Shown here: positions 52,630-63,800 of the stretch, one piece after another
Numbering within the stretch: the first letter of the stretch is position 1
How the letters are laid out: each line of letters starts with the position of its first letter
Assembly: GCA_030431975.1 (NCBI GenBank)
Contig: JAUIHP010000012.1
Span: 62,001-126,000 of the forward strand
Reading direction: 5' to 3'
DNA length: 64,000 nucleotides
DNA from: a bacterium
GTDB lineage: Bacteria; Eisenbacteria; RBG-16-71-46; CAIMUX01
Position numbers and translations under genes: made by a program
The notes under the pieces: model-generated
Seen by the model: only the letters and a program-made list of their open reading frames with translations
What the model was told of the DNA's origin: nothing
Databases searched by the model: none

Positions 52630-55137
52630 TTAGCGCGAATCTCGACCGAGGAAGATCAACTTCTTTGAGACCGTTCGTCCGAGGGCGGACAGTCTGTAGA
52701 GATAGGTGCCCGCCGGCACTCGGTTTCCCTGTCTGTCGGTTCCGTCCCAGGTAGTCCGATGCCGCCCGGCTTCGAATGCATCGTCAACCACAACCCGGAC
52801 CCGACGACCCGCAACGTCGAATATCTCCAGCGTCACATCTCCGGCTGCGGGTAGTCCGAACGAAATCTGCGTGGAGTTCGTAACAGGGTTTGGTTGATTG
52901 GGAAAGAGCTGCAGGTCATCGAACGACGGCCCGATTGGAACGCCCGCCGCCCGCACAGCGGCATCGTCCGCAAGTGTCGCCTCGAGAACGTAGACATACG
53001 ATGCATCCGCGGTCGCACTCGGATCGACGTACGATCGCGACTTGGGAGGCAGGAGTTCGCTCACCTTTGCGACGTGATCCACGCCGGATTCCCGCCGGTA
53101 AACACGGAACCCGACCACATTGCTACCTGCAAGCACATCCCATCGAATCTGGGCGCCGGAGGCACCCCAGCTCACCTCCACGACGCGAATCGGGTTGACC
53201 AGACCCGGTTTCAGATGAACTCCCAGTGGCATCGACCTTCCCAGTATCCGCCCCGCGGAGTCCCTCGCTTCGACCTCGAACTCGACCGGGATACCATCGG
53301 GAAGATCGAGAACTCGATGTGATCGCCCCCCCAATGGTATGGCCGCAGAGGGTTGCCCGGACGTCCCCGAATGGATCACCGCGTACTCCGTCGCATCGCT
53401 ACGTCCGAAAGTTTCGAAGCCTAGAGTGACACTGCGGCCCAGTGTGTCCACCTCGGCGATCCAAAGGTCTGGCGCCTGGGCCTCTGCGGACCATGGGAAC
53501 CGAAACGCACGGTAGTTGAAGACCTCGGGTTCGTACCGCATCTCCCAGGCCACACTTCCATCCGGTCGCACTTCTGTTTGGACGCCGGAGTTTCCAAAAG
53601 AGACGAACGTGTTTCCGTTTGGCAACCTCTGTGCATATCCCACGATCGGACCGTAAAGGTCTTCGCGGTGCTCATACTCCCACACCAAGGTTGCCGTTCG
53701 CTTCACTTCGTCGAGGCAGTACTCCACTGCGCGCGAAACCTGTGGTCGGTGGGCAGTCCCGTTGTCAAACAGAAGGACGTTGCCGTTCTCGAGCCGACGG
53801 ATCGCATGCTGTCGAGAGAACCAGCGGTCATCGTCGATCAGTGTGAACTGGTTCCTAAGCCCGCCCATGCGCCATAGAACTTCACCAGTCTCCCGATCGA
53901 TCTTCGTGATCTCGTTCGTGGACCGGCCCGAGAATAGGATGCTGCCGTCGAAGTCCGTCTCGATCGCATTGCAATGCACGTAGTCGATTCGCTGTGAAGT
54001 GAAGTCGAAATCCTGTGCATCCGTGATCTCGAAGTGATCCCAGCTCCTCCACTGGAAAACGACGTTCTTGTCATCGTCAAGTTCCTGAATGACCAGCCCC
54101 GCCACACGGGCGTCCTTCTGTCCTCCCTCGACGATCCGACTCATGTCCACCGTCTGCCAGTCGTAGATGATGATGAGCACATGCCCGTTCGGAAGCATTT
54201 CGAAGTCGTGAAAGTCCAGCTCCTCATAGCCGTTCCCGGCGAGAAAGGTGTCGACGGGAGTGTAGGTCGCATCCAAGGTGACAATACGTGCCGGACTCGC
54301 AAGCTCCGCGTAGCTCAGAAGTCCGGTGGCCTCATGAAGCTTGAAGTCGTGGACTCTGGACTCCGTTTCCCGGAAGAACACCGGCGACCCATCGTTGTCG
54401 AGGACGATCAGGTGTGGGGCCCTCTCCACGTTGGCCGTTCTCAGGGACGCGTTTGTCGTGAAGACGAACCCCGGGGCCGGGCCATCGTTGATGTCCACCG
54501 TGAATCTGGGGAAGTCGAACGGAAGAGGAAACGGTGACACTCGCTCGGAGGTCACGAGATCGATTCCCGGCATCGACTTCTTCTCCTTTCGGGATTGCAG
54601 CTGAGGTTGGCCGCTGGAACTCCATGGGATTGGAGCCTCCGCCCAGTCACATTCGACGTGGAGACATCGAGGGGTCTTGTCCCGTGCCTGTTCGGGGGAC
54701 GTGTGAAATCGGTATTCCAACACCACCCCCGCATCCGGTCCCGCTCCTCGGATCGACACGGTCACGGTCTCCGCGAATTCGAAAGGACTGGACGGACGAA
54801 ACGTGATGACCGCGCCGCCGTCTGCCGGTTTCCATTCCCCGGAATGTGGACCGGAAGCGTCTCCGCGAACCTCGACCTGCTGCTTCCAGTCGAGGCTCTC
54901 AACGAGGCTTGGATCGATGGGACGAAGGATCAACGAAGCCCCGACCGGAACGAAGACCGCATCCGGTTTCGGAGAAAGGAACGAGAAGCCGAACTCTTCC
55001 GTCGCCGCCGACGGACTCCCGATCATCAGAAAGAGCGTTACGAGTATGGCGGGAACGCGAGGAAACCTGAGGCCAAGCAGGACAGCGGATCGCCTCCGGA
55101 TCAATGATGACCCGTTCGCCCGAAACGGAATCGGCAT
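52630..55137 (-). CDS. Aryl-sulfotransferase-like exported protein with FlgD-like domain
   Basis: About 835 aa from ATG 55137 (GTG 55176 is an alternative). Signal peptide FPRVPAILVTLFLMIGSPSA. After a beta domain, residues ~190-560 resemble the ASST (PF05935) propeller: LIVLDNDGSPVFFRE, FHDFEMLPNGHVLIIIYD, YVHCNAIETDFDGSILFSGR, ITKIDRETGEVLWRMGG, FSRQHAIRRLENGNVLLFDNG. These contain His residues expected in the active site. Then a fibronectin-III-like segment and a FlgD-like end (FPNQPNPVTNSTQISFGLP, EIFDVAGRRVRVVVD, WDGTDRQGNRVPAGTYLYRL). It may transfer sulfate between phenols, or be a non-catalytic relative. Confidence 0.82.
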   Translation of the reverse strand: MPIPFRANGSSLIRRRSAVLLGLRFPRVPAILVTLFLMIGSPSAATEEFGFSFLSPKPDAVFVPVGASLILRPIDPSLVESLDWKQQVEVRGDASGPHSGEWKPADGGAVITFRPSSPFEFAETVTVSIRGAGPDAGVVLEYRFHTSPEQARDKTPRCLHVECDWAEAPIPWSSSGQPQLQSRKEKKSMPGIDLVTSERVSPFPLPFDFPRFTVDINDGPAPGFVFTTNASLRTANVERAPHLIVLDNDGSPVFFRETESRVHDFKLHEATGLLSYAELASPARIVTLDATYTPVDTFLAGNGYEELDFHDFEMLPNGHVLIIIYDWQTVDMSRIVEGGQKDARVAGLVIQELDDDKNVVFQWRSWDHFEITDAQDFDFTSQRIDYVHCNAIETDFDGSILFSGRSTNEITKIDRETGEVLWRMGGLRNQFTLIDDDRWFSRQHAIRRLENGNVLLFDNGTAHRPQVSRAVEYCLDEVKRTATLVWEYEHREDLYGPIVGYAQRLPNGNTFVSFGNSGVQTEVRPDGSVAWEMRYEPEVFNYRAFRFPWSAEAQAPDLWIAEVDTLGRSVTLGFETFGRSDATEYAVIHSGTSGQPSAAIPLGGRSHRVLDLPDGIPVEFEVEARDSAGRILGRSMPLGVHLKPGLVNPIRVVEVSWGASGAQIRWDVLAGSNVVGFRVYRRESGVDHVAKVSELLPPKSRSYVDPSATADASYVYVLEATLADDAAVRAAGVPIGPSFDDLQLFPNQPNPVTNSTQISFGLPAAGDVTLEIFDVAGRRVRVVVDDAFEAGRHRTTWDGTDRQGNRVPAGTYLYRLSALGRTVSKKLIFLGRDSR

Positions 55138-55421
55138 CCTCGAGGCGCTCCCTCCTGCTCTCTCAAAACGTCTCACCGACAGGGTCCCACGCCAGGACAG
55201 TTGGTGTTGCTTCTGTTCATCATATCAACGGTGGACGCGGCCCGGGCTAGTTGGCCGGGGCCGCAGACGGCATAATGGCTTGAAGGCCTCCACCGCTGCA
55301 ACCGACGGACGTCTACGCTAGAATTTCCGGTGCCGTGTCTCTTCACCTTTTCGACGGTGGGAACCGCCGGACGTGGGAACTTGTCCGCAGACGACCACCG
55401 CGAATCCTAGGAGGTATCCAA
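55138..55421 (+). other. Divergent spacer with GC-rich hairpin
   Basis: 284 bases between divergent genes. A strong imperfect hairpin GCGGCCCGG / CCGGGGCCGC lies at about 55237-55264; no T-run follows. No gene is seen. Confidence 0.35.
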
Positions 55422-55922: not shown

Positions 55923-56198
55923 CCAGCCCCCCCGGCGACGTATCTGCCCCGACCGCATGATCCACCCTCCAACGCTGGTGGGAAGGTCTCATCCTGTTGG
56001 CTGAGACGCAAACTCGGCGGCTCTTTCGTATCATCTAGGTCTCGACCGGACACCTATCTACTGAAGTTCACACCCGTGCACGACTTCCTGAACGCGCCGA
56101 CGCGCTTCAGACTCTGCAACCGCCGAGTCAAGCACGGGCAAGGTCGCCACCTGAGGTAGGGAGTAGCACTCCTCCCCACGAGAAGGAGCCCGAAGACG

Positions 56199-58928
56199 AT
56201 GCCATCCCCGATCTACAACCCGATCCCGCACCCACTTACGATTCTGTTTCTGGGTCTCTTGGGAACCTGCAGCGCCGGCGTGAAGTCCGTCGCTCTGGCT
56301 GGAAGCGAGCCCGGTCCGGACCCGTTCGAATTCTCCTGGCTCGGCTTCAACGCCGGGTCGAGCGCCTTTCCCGGAAACCCGGAACCGTTCGAGAGGGATC
56401 CGACAGCCATGACCTCCGCGGATTTCAACGGAGACGGCCTGCAGGACATCGCCATTTCGAACTACGAGTATGCCGCACCCGGTGGAGGAACCGACGGCAT
56501 GTCCGGTTTCGTCGTACTGCTCGGTATGGGGGGAAACCGCTTCACGGAGCCCAGCCACATCACCGTGTCGTCGCAGGGTTGCTGGGACATCGTCGCGCAC
56601 GACTTCGACCTCGACGGTGATCCTGACATTGCCGTTTCGATCGCCAATGCTTTCTGGGAAGGGACCGGAGTGAGGATCTACCTCAACGACGGATCCGGAC
56701 AGTTTCCGGAGTTTCGCTCGGCGGCCGTGGCCAACGGAGCGAGCGGGCTGGCGGCGGGAGACTTCGACGGCGACGGATCACCCGACCTGGCCGTCGCTAG
56801 TTTCCAATCGTTCGAGGAACAGGGCATCGTCTCGATTCTTTTCGGGGACGGCACAGGCAGTCTGAGTGCACTCACACCTTACTCGGTAGCGGCACGCCCC
56901 TGGAAGCTGGAGTCCGCGGATATGGACGGTGACGGTGATACCGACCTGGTCGTCGCGCACGAGCTTCACGCCGTCACCGTGCTCGAGAACACGGGCGCAG
57001 GACTGTTCCAGTCGCAGGAGTATTCGGGATTCTTTCCGCTCCAGGGCGGCCAGGCCTACGCCGCGTTGGCTCTGGCGGACGGGGACCAGGACGGAGACCT
57101 GGATGTCTACTACACGAATACCCGAACCGGCCAGCCCGGTCTGATTCAGCGCTACATCGTACATCTCCAGAATGACGGAGGAATCCTCAGTCGAGGAACC
57201 GACATTCCGGCTCCTTCCGCATGCGACCTCATATCCACGGACTGGAACGGCGACGGCTGGGCCGACTTCGCGACCGTCCTTCACAGCGGAAGGGACGGGG
57301 ACGGTCCGCAGATCATTCTTTCCGACGGAAACGGCGGGTATCACGAAGCGGCTCCTGTCGCGGCCGGTCAAGGGACCTTTGCCGTGCTTGCCGTCGACAT
57401 CGACGGTGATACCGACCCCGATCTACTGACCGCCGACCGGTACTCGATGGCACTGACCGTACATGACAACCGGGGCGACGGGATCTTTCCGCGTCTTCAG
57501 ATCTTCGACATCGAAGGACTGGGAGTCCGCCTGGATGCCGGCGACGTGGACGGCGACGGAGACCTCGACATCATGTCGTCGAGCGAGAGCTTCGGTACTC
57601 CGGGATCCCTGATCCGCAACGAGGGTGACGGCACGTTCGGACCTCCGGAGGTCTACACACACAGCGACACGTACGGCCGGGGCGTGGCCCGCGCGAAGCT
57701 CCGGGACCTGGACGGGGACGGAGACCTCGACCTGCTCTACAACGGCGCGCACACCGACTTCCATGACGGTTACAACTTCTACACCGCGATGAATGACGGA
57801 GCGGGTCAATTCGGCCCCATCATTCAGTGGTTCATCGGCACCTGTGGCAACGGCGACGTCGATGCCTTCGACCTGGACGGCGACGGAGATCTGGACGTCG
57901 TCAACTGCGAGGAACTCGCGTGTGCGGGCGGCCCAAGCGCCAACCGGCTCTACATCAGCCTGAACCGGGGAGATGGCACCTTTGATCCCGCCTACACCGT
58001 TCAGATCAGCACGGGCCCGCATGCCCTTCTCGGCGGTGACTTCAATGAGGATGGAGACGTCGACCTGATCACGACCCACTACATGCCCTACGGCTTCCGG
58101 GACTTCATCAACGTCCACATCGGCAACGGCGACGGAACCTTCGTCGAGGAGCAGGTCTATCAGACCGGGCAGGGCCCACGTTGGATCGTCTCCGAGGACT
58201 TCGATGGAGACGGTCACGCCGATCTGGCCACCGCGAACTCCGGCCAGGACGGTGAGGGAAGAGAAACCATGACCGTTCTCTTCGGCACCGGACTCGGTAC
58301 TTTCACCGGAAGGACCGACTACTACCTCCCCTTCTCCCCGGACTTGCTCGGAGCGACCGGGCTGGCCGCGGGAGACACCGACGGCGATGGGGATATCGAC
58401 CTCATGGCCACGACCGCAGCGAACGCACTCGTCCTCTACGAAAACGACGGAACCGGGAGCTTCGAGTTCGAGATTCGCTACGGAATGATCTGGGGACCGT
58501 GGAACCCCATCTTCGCGGACTTCAGCGGAGACGGAATCGAAGACGTAGCTTCGATCGGTTGGGATGGCGACTCTGAAGCGGAGGGCGGAGGCGTTCTGCT
58601 GTTGATCGGCAAACGGCAGGATCCTGCCAACGCTCCTGACCCAACTCCGGAGTCCTATTCTTCGAGAATCGCAGAAGTCCGGTCCGCGCCGAATCCGAGT
58701 CGCGAGTTTACTCGGCTGGAACTCAGGATTCCCGAGTCCCAGGATGTAGATATCTCCGTCTTCGATCCGTCGGGACGTCGGAGCCTGGAGGTCCACCGGG
58801 GTCGACTCGAGGCCGGCACCACTCACCGGTTCATCATCGATGCCCGCAACCTTGCCAGTGGCGCCTACTTCGTCAGGATCACGGGAGAGCGATTCCATCG
58901 GACGGAGAAAATCGTCGTCCAGAGATAG
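56199..58928 (+). CDS. Exported FG-GAP/VCBS repeat protein with FlgD-like C-terminus
   Basis: 909 aa. Signal-like N-terminus (PLTILFLGLLGTCSAGVKSVALA). The body has about a dozen FG-GAP/VCBS units with calcium-binding DxDxDG loops: DFNGDGLQDIAISN, DFDLDGDPDIAVS, DFDGDGSPDLAVAS, DMDGDGDTDLVVAH, DGDQDGDLDVYY, DLDGDGDLDLLYN and others, forming one or two seven-bladed propellers. The last ~80 residues are a type-IX/FlgD-like domain (SAPNPSREFTRLELRIPE, DISVFDPSGRRSLEVH, LASGAYFVRI, ending KIVVQR). GAAGGAG precedes ATG. Immediately followed by the HTH-M29-AraC regulator. Confidence 0.88.
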   Translation: MPSPIYNPIPHPLTILFLGLLGTCSAGVKSVALAGSEPGPDPFEFSWLGFNAGSSAFPGNPEPFERDPTAMTSADFNGDGLQDIAISNYEYAAPGGGTDGMSGFVVLLGMGGNRFTEPSHITVSSQGCWDIVAHDFDLDGDPDIAVSIANAFWEGTGVRIYLNDGSGQFPEFRSAAVANGASGLAAGDFDGDGSPDLAVASFQSFEEQGIVSILFGDGTGSLSALTPYSVAARPWKLESADMDGDGDTDLVVAHELHAVTVLENTGAGLFQSQEYSGFFPLQGGQAYAALALADGDQDGDLDVYYTNTRTGQPGLIQRYIVHLQNDGGILSRGTDIPAPSACDLISTDWNGDGWADFATVLHSGRDGDGPQIILSDGNGGYHEAAPVAAGQGTFAVLAVDIDGDTDPDLLTADRYSMALTVHDNRGDGIFPRLQIFDIEGLGVRLDAGDVDGDGDLDIMSSSESFGTPGSLIRNEGDGTFGPPEVYTHSDTYGRGVARAKLRDLDGDGDLDLLYNGAHTDFHDGYNFYTAMNDGAGQFGPIIQWFIGTCGNGDVDAFDLDGDGDLDVVNCEELACAGGPSANRLYISLNRGDGTFDPAYTVQISTGPHALLGGDFNEDGDVDLITTHYMPYGFRDFINVHIGNGDGTFVEEQVYQTGQGPRWIVSEDFDGDGHADLATANSGQDGEGRETMTVLFGTGLGTFTGRTDYYLPFSPDLLGATGLAAGDTDGDGDIDLMATTAANALVLYENDGTGSFEFEIRYGMIWGPWNPIFADFSGDGIEDVASIGWDGDSEAEGGGVLLLIGKRQDPANAPDPTPESYSSRIAEVRSAPNPSREFTRLELRIPESQDVDISVFDPSGRRSLEVHRGRLEAGTTHRFIIDARNLASGAYFVRITGERFHRTEKIVVQR

Positions 58929-58947: not shown

Positions 58948-60831
58948 GTGGGCGATCGCAAGAACATACGAGATCTCGACGTACTTCGGGAGTTCGATGA
59001 GGTTCGTGCGATCGCTCACGAACAGCGCCTGCAACTGCTCGCTCACCTGACACGCGGTCCGATGAGCGCGGGAGTCCTCTCGCGAAAGACGGGGATCCGT
59101 CCGAACCGCATTCACTACCATCTTCGTCGTCTCCTGGACTTGGGGATGGTCCACGAAGTGCCGGACCGATCGCGGGAACGCGCTTCGGATCGCCGGTACG
59201 TTGCCCGAGCCCGGCACTTCATCGTCGATCCCGGACTCGGCCTGAACGATCCGGGAATGGTGGCTGCCATCGACAGCTCTCTCCAGTCCATGCTGCTGGA
59301 TTGGAGACGGAGCGAAATCCTTCAGATCGACGTGCCGCGCCTGGCCAGACGAATCGCATTCGACTGCGCGCGTATCTCCGCCGGCGAAACCGTTCTCATC
59401 ATCTACGGCCGGTTCGGAGCGGAACTCGGAGAGACGCTTCTCGTCGAAGTGGAAGCAGCAGGCGCCAGAGGAGTCATCCGCCCCTGGTCACACACCTGGT
59501 TGTTTCGGACGATGGACCGACATCGGGACGAGGACCTCCAGGGGATGAGCTTCGTTCCCGACGAGTTGTGGTCTTCTCTCGACGCCGTGCTCATCCTGAC
59601 GACCAGCTTGCCGGAAGGCGCGGCGCCCGATGAGGAACAGACCCGGAAGATCCCGGCGATGATGGAACTCATGTCGCGCTTTCTGCGCGAGGTCCATCGT
59701 CGCAGGATCCGCTTCGTGGAGTTCAGTCTCCCCTTTCGAAGCGAGTTCGACTCTTCGCTCGTCTCTCCCGAGGACGGAACGACGACATTTTGGAAGGCCG
59801 TGATGACGGACCTGGACGCGATCGGTCAGTCGGGAGGGCGGCTGCATGAACGAATCATCGCCGATCCATCGCTACGGATGGTTTGCGAACGCGGCACGGA
59901 ACTGACCTTGAAAGTCGACCCTCGAACGATCAGCGTTCGCGACGGAGTGCTGACCAGCCGGGATGTCTCCGGAGGGAGAACGGCCGAAGTGTTGCCGACC
60001 GGATCCCTGGCCGCAGTACCGGACCCCGAGTCGGTGCGCGGCCGTTTCGTGGCCGACTACGTCGCATGGAGCGGGGTCGTGGTGAGGAATCCGAAACTTC
60101 GCATCGATCGCGGAAGAATCATCGAGATCGAAGGCGGCGAAGGAATCGAGTTCGTCCGAGAGATGATGGCCGGGGCTAAGGGAGACGGGGACCAGGTCGC
60201 CATGGTGACGTTCGGGCTCAACCCCGCCGGCAGGGGCCCGACCGGAAAGCCCACCTTGGATTCCTGCCTCGAGGGCACGGTCTCACTTCACTTCGGGAGC
60301 AACGAGCTGCTCGGCGGGCAGGGAAGATCCACCTTGAACCTCGTGTTTCCGCACACGGCACTTTCCGTCAGAAACGGACCGTTCACGTTGCTCGACTCGG
60401 GTCGCTTCGTGTGGGACGAGACCAAAGACGCGAGACCACGGGGGCGCTACGAGCGATCCGGGCTCGGACCGGCGGACATCGAGCGGATCGCCAAGGATCT
60501 CCAGGAACTCATGGAACGTGAACGTCCCTACCTCGACTCGCGGCTGCGTCGGGAGACCCTCGCGTCACGCCTTGCCGTATCGACGAACCATCTCTCCCAA
60601 GTGCTCCGCCAGGGGTTGTCGACGACGTTCAACGACCTCGTGAACCTCCACCGGGTGGAGGAATTCAAACGGCGCGTCCAGGACCCGACAAACCGGAACC
60701 GAACGCACCTTGCGCTCGCCCTCGACGCCGGTTTTCCGAGCAAGGCGTCCTTTTACCGAAGCTTCAGGAAGGTTACCGGGGAAACACCGGCCCAGTTTCA
60801 GGAGCGGATGGCTTCAACTACCCAGGAATGA
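58948..60831 (+). CDS. ArsR-HTH / M29-aminopeptidase-like / AraC-HTH fusion regulator
   Basis: 627 aa from GTG 58948; ATG starts upstream lie inside the FG-GAP gene. Residues ~15-75 are an ArsR-type winged helix (IAHEQRLQLLAHLTRGPMS, SRKTGIRPNRIHYHLRRLLDLGMVHEV). The middle (~110-470) resembles M29 (AmpS) aminopeptidases: VRGRFVADYVAW, GRIIEIEGGEG, FGLNPAGRG, GTVSLHFGSNELLGGQGRST. Metal-ligand positions appear lost (family HLALG His reads as SLHFG; HxD reads as NLV), so it is probably a ligand-sensing pseudoenzyme. The C-terminus (~525-620) is an AraC-type HTH (DSRLRRETLASRLAVSTNHLSQVLRQGL; LALDAGFPSKASFYRSFRKVTGETPAQF). Two different DNA-binding domains flanking a dead peptidase is very unusual. 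It may control the neighbouring exported proteins. Confidence 0.8.
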   Translation: MGDRKNIRDLDVLREFDEVRAIAHEQRLQLLAHLTRGPMSAGVLSRKTGIRPNRIHYHLRRLLDLGMVHEVPDRSRERASDRRYVARARHFIVDPGLGLNDPGMVAAIDSSLQSMLLDWRRSEILQIDVPRLARRIAFDCARISAGETVLIIYGRFGAELGETLLVEVEAAGARGVIRPWSHTWLFRTMDRHRDEDLQGMSFVPDELWSSLDAVLILTTSLPEGAAPDEEQTRKIPAMMELMSRFLREVHRRRIRFVEFSLPFRSEFDSSLVSPEDGTTTFWKAVMTDLDAIGQSGGRLHERIIADPSLRMVCERGTELTLKVDPRTISVRDGVLTSRDVSGGRTAEVLPTGSLAAVPDPESVRGRFVADYVAWSGVVVRNPKLRIDRGRIIEIEGGEGIEFVREMMAGAKGDGDQVAMVTFGLNPAGRGPTGKPTLDSCLEGTVSLHFGSNELLGGQGRSTLNLVFPHTALSVRNGPFTLLDSGRFVWDETKDARPRGRYERSGLGPADIERIAKDLQELMERERPYLDSRLRRETLASRLAVSTNHLSQVLRQGLSTTFNDLVNLHRVEEFKRRVQDPTNRNRTHLALALDAGFPSKASFYRSFRKVTGETPAQFQERMASTTQE

Positions 60832-60844
60832 AGCAACGGCCCAC

Positions 60845-63800
60845 CTACCGCGGTCTTCCGATCCGGGTCAGCTTCCCGCCGCCGCCGGACTCACCACCGG
60901 ACTCGACGCGGTAGAAGTAGACGCCCGGCGCAACCGAGACTCCACGGTCCGTTCGGCCGTCCCAGTTCAACGACCACTGCCCGGCACTCTTCAACTCTGG
61001 AGAGTAGGTGCGGACCCTCCGCCCGGTCGCGTCGAAGATGGAGACGCCGACTTCGGCCGGGTCGGTCAACGTGAACCGGATCGCGGTCGAGTTCTCGAAG
61101 GGATTGGGGAACGCCGGCTGCAGATGAAGAGAGGTTCCACCGGGAAGCTCGAGCCCGCTGTCCTCCATACCGCTGACCACGGTCTCCGGCGGGTGTGAGA
61201 CGAAGACGTAGTCGAACCCGTCCGAGAACCAGTCGATGTCCATGATCACCTGGTTGTCCCGCAGTTGCGGATCCCCCTGAATTACCACACTGAAGACCGG
61301 ATCCGTCGTCGGCTCCGCCGGCTCGAAGACTTCGTAGAAGTACTCCTCCTCGACGAGAAGGTGGAGAGGTCCACCGCTGCCGTCATGGGATTCGAGAATC
61401 CAATCGAACTGTTCTGTCGGCCCGTAGCCGGATGGCACGACGATGGAGCCTCCCGGTGCGATGTTGAAGAAGCTGGAGAAGAGAGGCGTCTCGACTTTGA
61501 TCTTGGTCGTCCAGGTCTCCAGGTTCGTGATCCGGATCTCCTCGTGTCCCTCGAACGGACCGATTCCGTAGTGCGCTTCGCCGTTGGGTTCGATCGCGAC
61601 CTCGGCTTCCCGCGACACGACGATGCGCGCGTTCGTCTCCGCGACCTCGGCCGACGCATGAAAGAGATTCATCTGCTGACTGTACGTCTGCTGGGACCCG
61701 GACCGGATTCGGGAGTCATTGAGCGCCGAAGCGGTGATCCCACCCTGGACGTACACATCTCTGAACTGCCAGTCTTCCCAGAGTTCGATCGTCATGCAGT
61801 TTCCGACGCCCAGGCCGATGAGACGGCCGGCATCCTGTCGGGCTGTCGGACCGTCGACGGTTCCAAACGTCGTCGCGACTGCATCTCCGAAGCGTCCCCG
61901 TGCGGAGACGCACCACGTCGTCTGTGCAGCCGGGGTGAACCCGCCTTTGAGCCCGGTTCCCGTGATTCCCATGTTGTTGTTGAGAATCCAGCTCTGGAAA
62001 CTGTTGAAATTGTCGATGAGAACCGCTCCCGTCGGCAGAATCCGGGCGGCGGTGTACGAACTCGTCGTCGAGATCTCGCGGAACATCGCGTTCCGCAACG
62101 CCTCTTTGCTCAGGAGAGCCATGTCGTAGGCCGTGGAGTAATGGTCGCCGAGATCGCGTCCGACGGCTTCCTGTTCGAACCCGTTGGGATTATTGAACGC
62201 CGTGTCGAACATCCCGATCTCGTCGGCTCTCTCGTTCATTCGCTGGACGAAGAGCGGAAGAGACACCTCCGGTCCCAGCGAGCCGTAGAGCAGGTCGGCG
62301 ATGGCATGGGCCGCATCGTTGCCGGAAATGAGAAGCGCCATGTGCATCAGGTCTTCCAACGTCACCGTCTCGCCCTCGATCAGGTCGGCCGAGGAGCCTC
62401 CGATGTTGTTCGCGACCCAGGCAGGGACGGTGTACGAAGTGTCGAGGTCGACATAGTCGGGGTCGCCCGGCGACAACGACGCTCGCTCGCAGGCGAGCAG
62501 CACCGTCATGATCTTCGTCGTACTCGCGATGTAGACCTGTTCAAAAGGCTTCTGCGTGTAGACGAGTTCACCCTGACAGTCCATGACACAGGCGGTCTTG
62601 TGAGTTTGGAAGTAGAACTGGCGCCACGGGGCGACGACGTGGACGAGACCTGCGTAGTCGTCCTCTCCCGGAGCCCCGATCACTGCGGTCCCGCGGTTGC
62701 TGGAATCGAACTCACCACCAAGACTAAGCCCATAGCCGAGTAGGTCTGCGGTCTCCGGAGTCTCCCCGATCGGAGTTTGCGAGTAGACGTAGTAGCCTTC
62801 GTTGCCGATTCCGGAAACGCCTCCGAGAAGGAGATGGCAGATTCCGGCGTCGCTTCCAACGAAGTCGGCGAGAGGAGAGCCGATCATCAGGTCGTCGAAG
62901 TTGTCGTCTTCGAAACGCCCCGATGCAAGGAAGAGGCCGAACCGCTCGTCGTCTCCGCTGGGACCGTCGAACATGTCGCGGGTCAGCGCCACGCCGGTGT
63001 CATAGTTGGGACCATCCACCGATCCCATGACCGCCACAACGCGACCGGCTCTCTGAACGCTCCCAAGGTAGCGGTCGGGCTCGCCAATGAAGATCCGGTC
63101 ATAGACACCGACCGAAGTCGTGGCCAGGGACATTCCGAAGTCGGCTTGTGCCGCGCAGTCATCCACCACCTTTGCGGTGAAGCTGAGGGCTGCCCCTTCG
63201 ACCAGCCCCGAGTTGCTGCCCGGCACCATGTAGCAGACCCCGGCGCCGCCCTGTCCGAAGGCATCACGGTGCGGGGCGCCGACGATGAGATCCTTCCGCG
63301 TGTCGCCAATGACGTTCCCTGCGGCGAGCGAGAGCCCGAAGTAGTCGTCGATCTGATACGAGGCGCCCAGATCCTCGGCCGTGAACAGCTGGTCGGCGCC
63401 GAAAGGCCCGTTTGCGGCGCCGTAGCGAACGAAGACGGTTCCCGCCTGTTGGCCCTGGCCCGGACTGCCCACAGCAACATCCGGATAGAGGTCGTTGTTG
63501 AAGTCCGAGATGACGATCGACTGGCCGAAGAAGTCTCCGTACTGCGAGAAGCCGTTCCAGTGTTCCTGAGCGTAGGCCACCCAAGGCTGCAACCCGTTGG
63601 AGCTGCCGTAGTACATGCCGATCCAACCGGCCAAACTCACGCCGTTGTAGGTCGCGGTCGGCATTCCGACGACGAGGTCATCGTAGCCGTCGCGGTTCAG
63701 GTCCCCGACGGCGAGCGTGTTCCCGAATCGCATGTCGGTATGAAGTGACAGACCGAGCTGGCCCGGCTCGAGGAGCGCCGCGGCAACATGCGTCAACCCT

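Follow-up and report, generated by a model that had tools for sequence, protein, structure and literature searches.

The reuse of enzyme folds as the sensors of one-component regulators is a known principle, as in the MocR and ROK regulators, where a winged helix is joined to a recruited aminotransferase or sugar-kinase fold rather than a peptidase. In the libraries and literature searched we found no M29 or other peptidase fold in such a sensor role, and literature searches for ArsR combined with M29, or with type IX secretion, returned nothing relevant. Classical ArsR/SmtB-type regulators are proteins of about 100 aa with a winged helix-turn-helix (wHTH). Among M29 aminopeptidases, AmpT (2ayi) is reported to shift between open and closed forms, and in the Listeria enzyme LmAmpII (AmpII) mutation of any of the six M29 catalytic residues abolishes activity (PMC7023490). 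A departure from the enzyme is known from crocagin biosynthesis, where CgnB and CgnE have an M29-derived fold but no peptidase activity; in CgnE the metal site is broken and metal is absent, and its authors placed it in a family of peptide-binding proteins (PMC10070186).

The window, i.e. the whole 64,000-nucleotide stretch of Eisenbacteria DNA analyzed here, encodes a 627-aa protein in which elements of these systems are found together (Table 1). The preliminary description had proposed an ArsR HTH, an M29-like domain and an AraC HTH in one reading frame, in an order not known from any named family. Pfam places HTH_20 (E 1.8e-9), with HTH_5 also matching (E 4.2e-6), at the N-terminus, and HTH_18 at residues 538-620 (E 1.2e-14, above the cut-off), so that the protein carries an AraC/XylS-type DNA-binding domain; the M29 fold lies between them, and Pfam, NCBIfam and the literature searched hold no named family with this order. 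The modelled wHTH matches ArsR structures with Z about 11, the nearest solved structure by family profile being PH1932 (1uly), while the NCBIfam metalloregulator model NF033788 scores 30 bits, below its cut-off of 55. Unlike the classical ArsR/SmtB proteins, the window protein adds a large enzyme-derived domain after the wHTH. That it is a DNA-binding regulator is, from these domains, very probable. The open frame on the plus strand already begins at an ATG at 58840 and runs to 60831; the likely start is the GTG at 58948, which has AAAGGA 11 nt upstream and the preceding stop 19 nt before it, and which agrees with the start of a relative (L064).

Table 1. Positions of the regulator, its parts and the adjacent secreted-protein gene in the window.
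Feature	Position	Strand	Basis or remark
ArsR-M29-AraC regulator, 627 aa	58948..60831	+	likely GTG start
ArsR-type winged helix	59014..59160	+	Pfam HTH_20, residues 23-71; modelled wHTH about 5-98
M29-fold domain, without metal ligands	59308..60420	+	residues 121-491; structure match and family profile
S353, ligand Glu site (AmpS E253)	60004..60006	+	alignments
M419, bridging Glu site (AmpS E319)	60202..60204	+	alignments
S446, ligand His site (AmpS H348)	60283..60285	+	alignment
N464-L-V466, HxD site (AmpS H381/D383)	60337..60345	+	alignment
RYERSGL linker and AraC/HTH_18 DNA-binding module	60442..60819	+	residues 499-624; in no relative
Secreted FG-GAP protein with type IX sorting tail	56199..58928	+	FG-GAP_3 8.8e-75, Por_Secre_tail 1.6e-6

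Against the Pfam Peptidase_M29 model the window protein narrowly misses the cut-off (26.1 bits over residues 308-408, cut-off 27), and four of its relatives exceed it with 30.6, 34.2, 39.8 and 50.6 bits. An AlphaFold model built from an alignment of 12 rows has a mean pLDDT of 77.5, rising to about 90 for residues 130-490, the M29 part; the AraC part is poorly modelled because the alignment held no AraC rows, a search of viral contigs for AraC homologs to align having given one short match only. When VIA-align was run on Foldseek's top 1000 for this model, AmpT was the best match (Z 26.4 over 352 residues), and AmpT, NicX (Z 26.3), PepS (4icq/4icr/4ics) and AmpS (1zjc) together formed the top rank with Z 25-26 over 310-356 residues, followed by CgnE and CgnB with Z 13-14. 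A profile of six family members likewise retrieved PepS, AmpS and AmpT from the PDB (E 4.5e-12 to 6e-9), and also NicX. Predicted structure and family profile thus agree with the earlier reading of the middle region, i.e. that it has the M29 fold.

Ligand positions were assigned by aligning the protein with M29 proteins whose ligands are intact (L079, L010 and L075), and those of E253 and E319 additionally from a profile alignment to AmpS; the EEHYHD motif was scored at the five metal-ligand positions. All five ligands are replaced in the window protein, so that the suspicion that the Glu, His and HxD positions had been lost survives proper alignment. Since the Listeria enzyme tolerates the loss of none of its six catalytic residues, the window domain should, judged from its residues, be inert as a peptidase. 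Compared to AmpT, PepS and AmpS, then, the same fold appears with its metal and catalytic ligands replaced and with DNA-binding domains fused to it; CgnB and CgnE, which share the lack of peptidase activity, differ from it in that they do not bind DNA, are without much of the N-terminal M29 part and serve in biosynthesis. A domain that is still partly enzymatic through other metal ligands, e.g. in the manner of NicX with its same fold, seems to us highly improbable, as the His and HxD positions are without ligands throughout the family described below.

The preliminary description treated the protein as a single odd case, which proved too narrow. Single-sequence searches of genome contigs and viral contigs gave no close relatives, whereas profile searches did. 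Two sister-genome genes, both from Eisenbacteria, encode ArsR-M29 proteins without AraC (L063, 41% identical, and L064, 35%), and broad sampling across bacteria added three further genomes. Phylum-level searches with a six-row profile then gave near-full-length ArsR-M29 members (a count of rows) in 61 of 125 genomes of a first phylum, probably Cloacimonadota, and in 16 of 20 genomes of a second, that of genome G256, one of them split over two reading frames. No ArsR-M29 protein was found beyond the three phyla in two broad samples of about 385 genomes each (386 in the second). Two genomes (G491 and G498) have two paralogs each. In a tree, the Eisenbacteria, the second phylum and the f268 proteins form separate groups with full support and long branches, and the ArsR-M29 fusion likely arose once. 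By these sequences, the ArsR plus dead M29 core defines a separate family, present in at least three phyla and apparently undescribed so far.

The loss of the metal site runs through the whole family. In the set of 59 distinct proteins, S, T or A occupies the His345 position throughout; 58 have lost the second Glu and 36 retain the first. HxD is lost in all 58 that align there, the remaining one being truncated. The window protein has the ArsR wHTH, the M29 domain lacking His and HxD, and a cargo-gene neighbor like its relatives; what sets it apart is the C-terminus, as every other member ends at most 16 residues after the M29 part. With every catalytic ligand gone, the domain might be a mere scaffold for dimerization or spacing, the ArsR domain answering another cue or being constitutive, and the extensive dimer interface of M29 enzymes would indeed suit a dimeric repressor. 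We consider this unlikely, as the residues that are invariant over long divergence around the old active-site motifs (G333, P350, G352, G365, G423, N425 and G450) exceed what a mere scaffold needs, and as the fold precedent CgnB/CgnE binds peptide. W282 is also present in 59 of 59 family proteins. The earlier suggestion of a peptide or amino-acid sensor remains plausible and is strengthened, by analogy, by the same precedent.

In nearly all contexts read, the regulator is followed directly by a co-oriented gene for a large secreted protein, the gap in the first phylum being typically about 15 bp. The cargo, as named by Pfam and NCBIfam, is diverse: choice-of-anchor J/Cleaved_Adhesin proteins with Por_Secre_tail (L161, L178; about 1086 aa in f152/f265), a gingipain-like Peptidase_C25 in f268, which in L185 carries Por_Secre_tail and flanks the regulator on either side, and InhA-like MAM plus FlgD_ig proteins in the second phylum (L194, L197). 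In the window the order is reversed, the FG-GAP and Por_Secre_tail gene lying upstream and ending 19 nt before the regulator. From this arrangement, it likely shares the regulator's operon and is its target.

Several variations on these contexts were observed. At L063:4699-4702 the stop codon of the regulator and the ATG of a gene for a secreted Reg_prop propeller protein overlap, which suggests translational coupling. At L158:11630-13310 the second downstream gene, whose product in sister genomes has about 560 aa, is broken into two frames in G187, probably through frameshift or decay. Elsewhere in the window, both on the minus strand, are a secreted protein with FG-GAP repeats, a D-alanyl-D-alanine carboxypeptidase (Peptidase_S11) domain and a FlgD-type sorting tail (60845-63796), and an Arylsulfotransferase (ASST) domain protein with a FlgD-Ig/Por_Secre sorting tail (52630-55176).

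Sorting tails are common in these genomes (67 in G187, 91 in G256 and at least 150 in G000), so adjacency by itself could mislead, and one may ask if the regulator acts on other genes and has secreted cargo nearby only incidentally. We regard that as improbable. The tail frequency, estimated at roughly one per 25 to 30 genes in G187 and G256, together with the different cargo in independent lineages, often on the same strand and about 15-20 bp away, makes chance adjacency unlikely as far as gene order can tell. Copies of the DNA elements described next, situated elsewhere in the genomes, likewise mostly precede genes for secreted proteins.

In the first phylum the regulator is preceded by GTCAA-N7-TTGAC, whose commonest form self-matches in 7 of 8 symmetric positions and whose right half could act as a -35 box; the -10 boxes in this phylum are weak, and for that reason we can only infer repression there. 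An exact scan for GTMAAAAANNNHTTGAC gave 29 matches in 20 genomes and one for the reversed control. Twenty sites lie upstream of the regulator (19 genomes), by construction, as both element patterns were built from regulator-upstream DNA, and the independent evidence is confined to the rarity of the elements and their extra sites. Nine such sites are situated elsewhere: four about 400-500 bp before an orthologous secreted cargo gene in four Cloacimonas-like genomes, its product having a sorting tail in G187, one before another secreted protein, one before a small lipoprotein-like gene, and three before neither. A small frame starting MKM(K/Q), otherwise unconserved in sequence and perhaps a leader, occurs between a second operator-like site and the cargo gene in L218, L220 and L221.

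The second phylum has an element unlike that of the first. CGCTGRAMANNNRGACYG gave 23 matches in 14 genomes against three for the control, and each of the 14 has it in front of the regulator. Out of eight other sites, five come directly after a promoter-like TTGA-TATxxT, 30-73 bp before genes for signal-peptide proteins, two of which are orthologs of the cargo gene beside the regulator in G256. At the regulator itself CGCTGGAAAATTAGACCG follows a TTGAC-N17-TATxxT promoter, and a site directly behind the -10 box is compatible, by position, with a repressor. The promoters bearing GTCAAAAAGTTCTTGAC and CGCTGGAAAATTAGACCG are candidate operator promoters in the relatives, where the extra sites make up a small candidate regulon, and they leave regulator, operator and regulon open to direct test. 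In Eisenbacteria no operator-like element was identified, and a search upstream of the FG-GAP gene found no sigma-70-like promoter. An inverted repeat in that region, GTCTCATCC-TGTT-GGCTGAGAC at 55986-56007, occurs once in the genome; we do not claim it as an operator, because repeats of similar quality occur about 0.35 times per 300 bp in the window.

Taken together, we favor, at a probability of roughly 0.6, a one-component regulator of secreted cargo that also regulates its own expression and uses its dead peptidase domain to bind a peptide or amino acid. The window protein would be cytoplasmic, its N-terminal winged helix binding an operator located at the promoter of the operon to which it belongs. 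Lacking the metal site, the M29 fold would not cleave peptides; a peptide or amino acid would most likely be held in the former substrate cleft and would open or close the two lobes, thereby altering DNA affinity, for which the movement known from AmpT would offer a ready allosteric switch. Its targets would be the operon partner or partners together with a few further genes for secreted type IX cargo, and the loop would match the output of secreted adhesins and proteases to the intracellular peptide supply. The parts differ in strength: control of cargo is well supported in the relatives, in the window itself we lean towards it by a small margin only, and the nature of the ligand, drawn from the CgnB/CgnE analogy, is tentative. 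In the literature searched, dedicated regulators of type IX cargo seem not to have been described from these uncultured phyla. More speculatively still, a retired aminopeptidase might here sense peptides inside the cell for a conserved family of repressors that tune the export of adhesins and gingipain-like proteases by type IX secretion, thereby linking proteolysis outside the cell to the peptide supply within it in a closed loop, with the second HTH of the window protein possibly joining two operators or inputs.

The AraC domain is found in the window protein alone among all members. Its module, including the RYERSGL linker, shares 38-41% identity with the C-terminal region of two membrane-AraC proteins, L002 from the window genome itself and L007, and a third (L277), in a sister genome, has the same linker, of the form KYxxSxL in these regulators; where they have N-terminal membrane helices, the window protein has ArsR-M29. 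Being absent from all relatives and known from a single MAG, the extension might be an artefact of assembly or annotation, the native protein stopping after the M29 domain as its relatives do. This we hold to be very unlikely, since the frame is continuous and the linker motif sits at the same place in the membrane-AraC proteins. GC by codon position is unbroken over the M29/AraC junction and the gene is on a 194-kb contig, and the fusion therefore looks genuine, though the tri-domain form comes from that one MAG. The simplest history would be that an ArsR-M29 gene of the window lineage acquired a membrane-AraC-type module at its end by fusion, and it probably gives the protein a second DNA contact. 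In three genomes of genus g343 (L170, L175 and L176), the ArsR-M29 gene has a separate AraC-type regulator gene upstream of it, at most two genes away.

Lastly, a stand-alone M29-like family with the motifs ISHIGIGLNP...DEHxxG...GENRYMGGQN was found in Chloroflexi, Acidobacteria, Schekmanbacteria, Eisenbacteria and others (L065-L070 and L072-L074, complete genes; L071 is truncated by the end of its contig). The first Glu is mostly Ser, the second is His, the His345 position is mostly hydrophobic and HxD is mostly NxD, which possibly represents, judging by these residues, another altered or NicX-like metal site.
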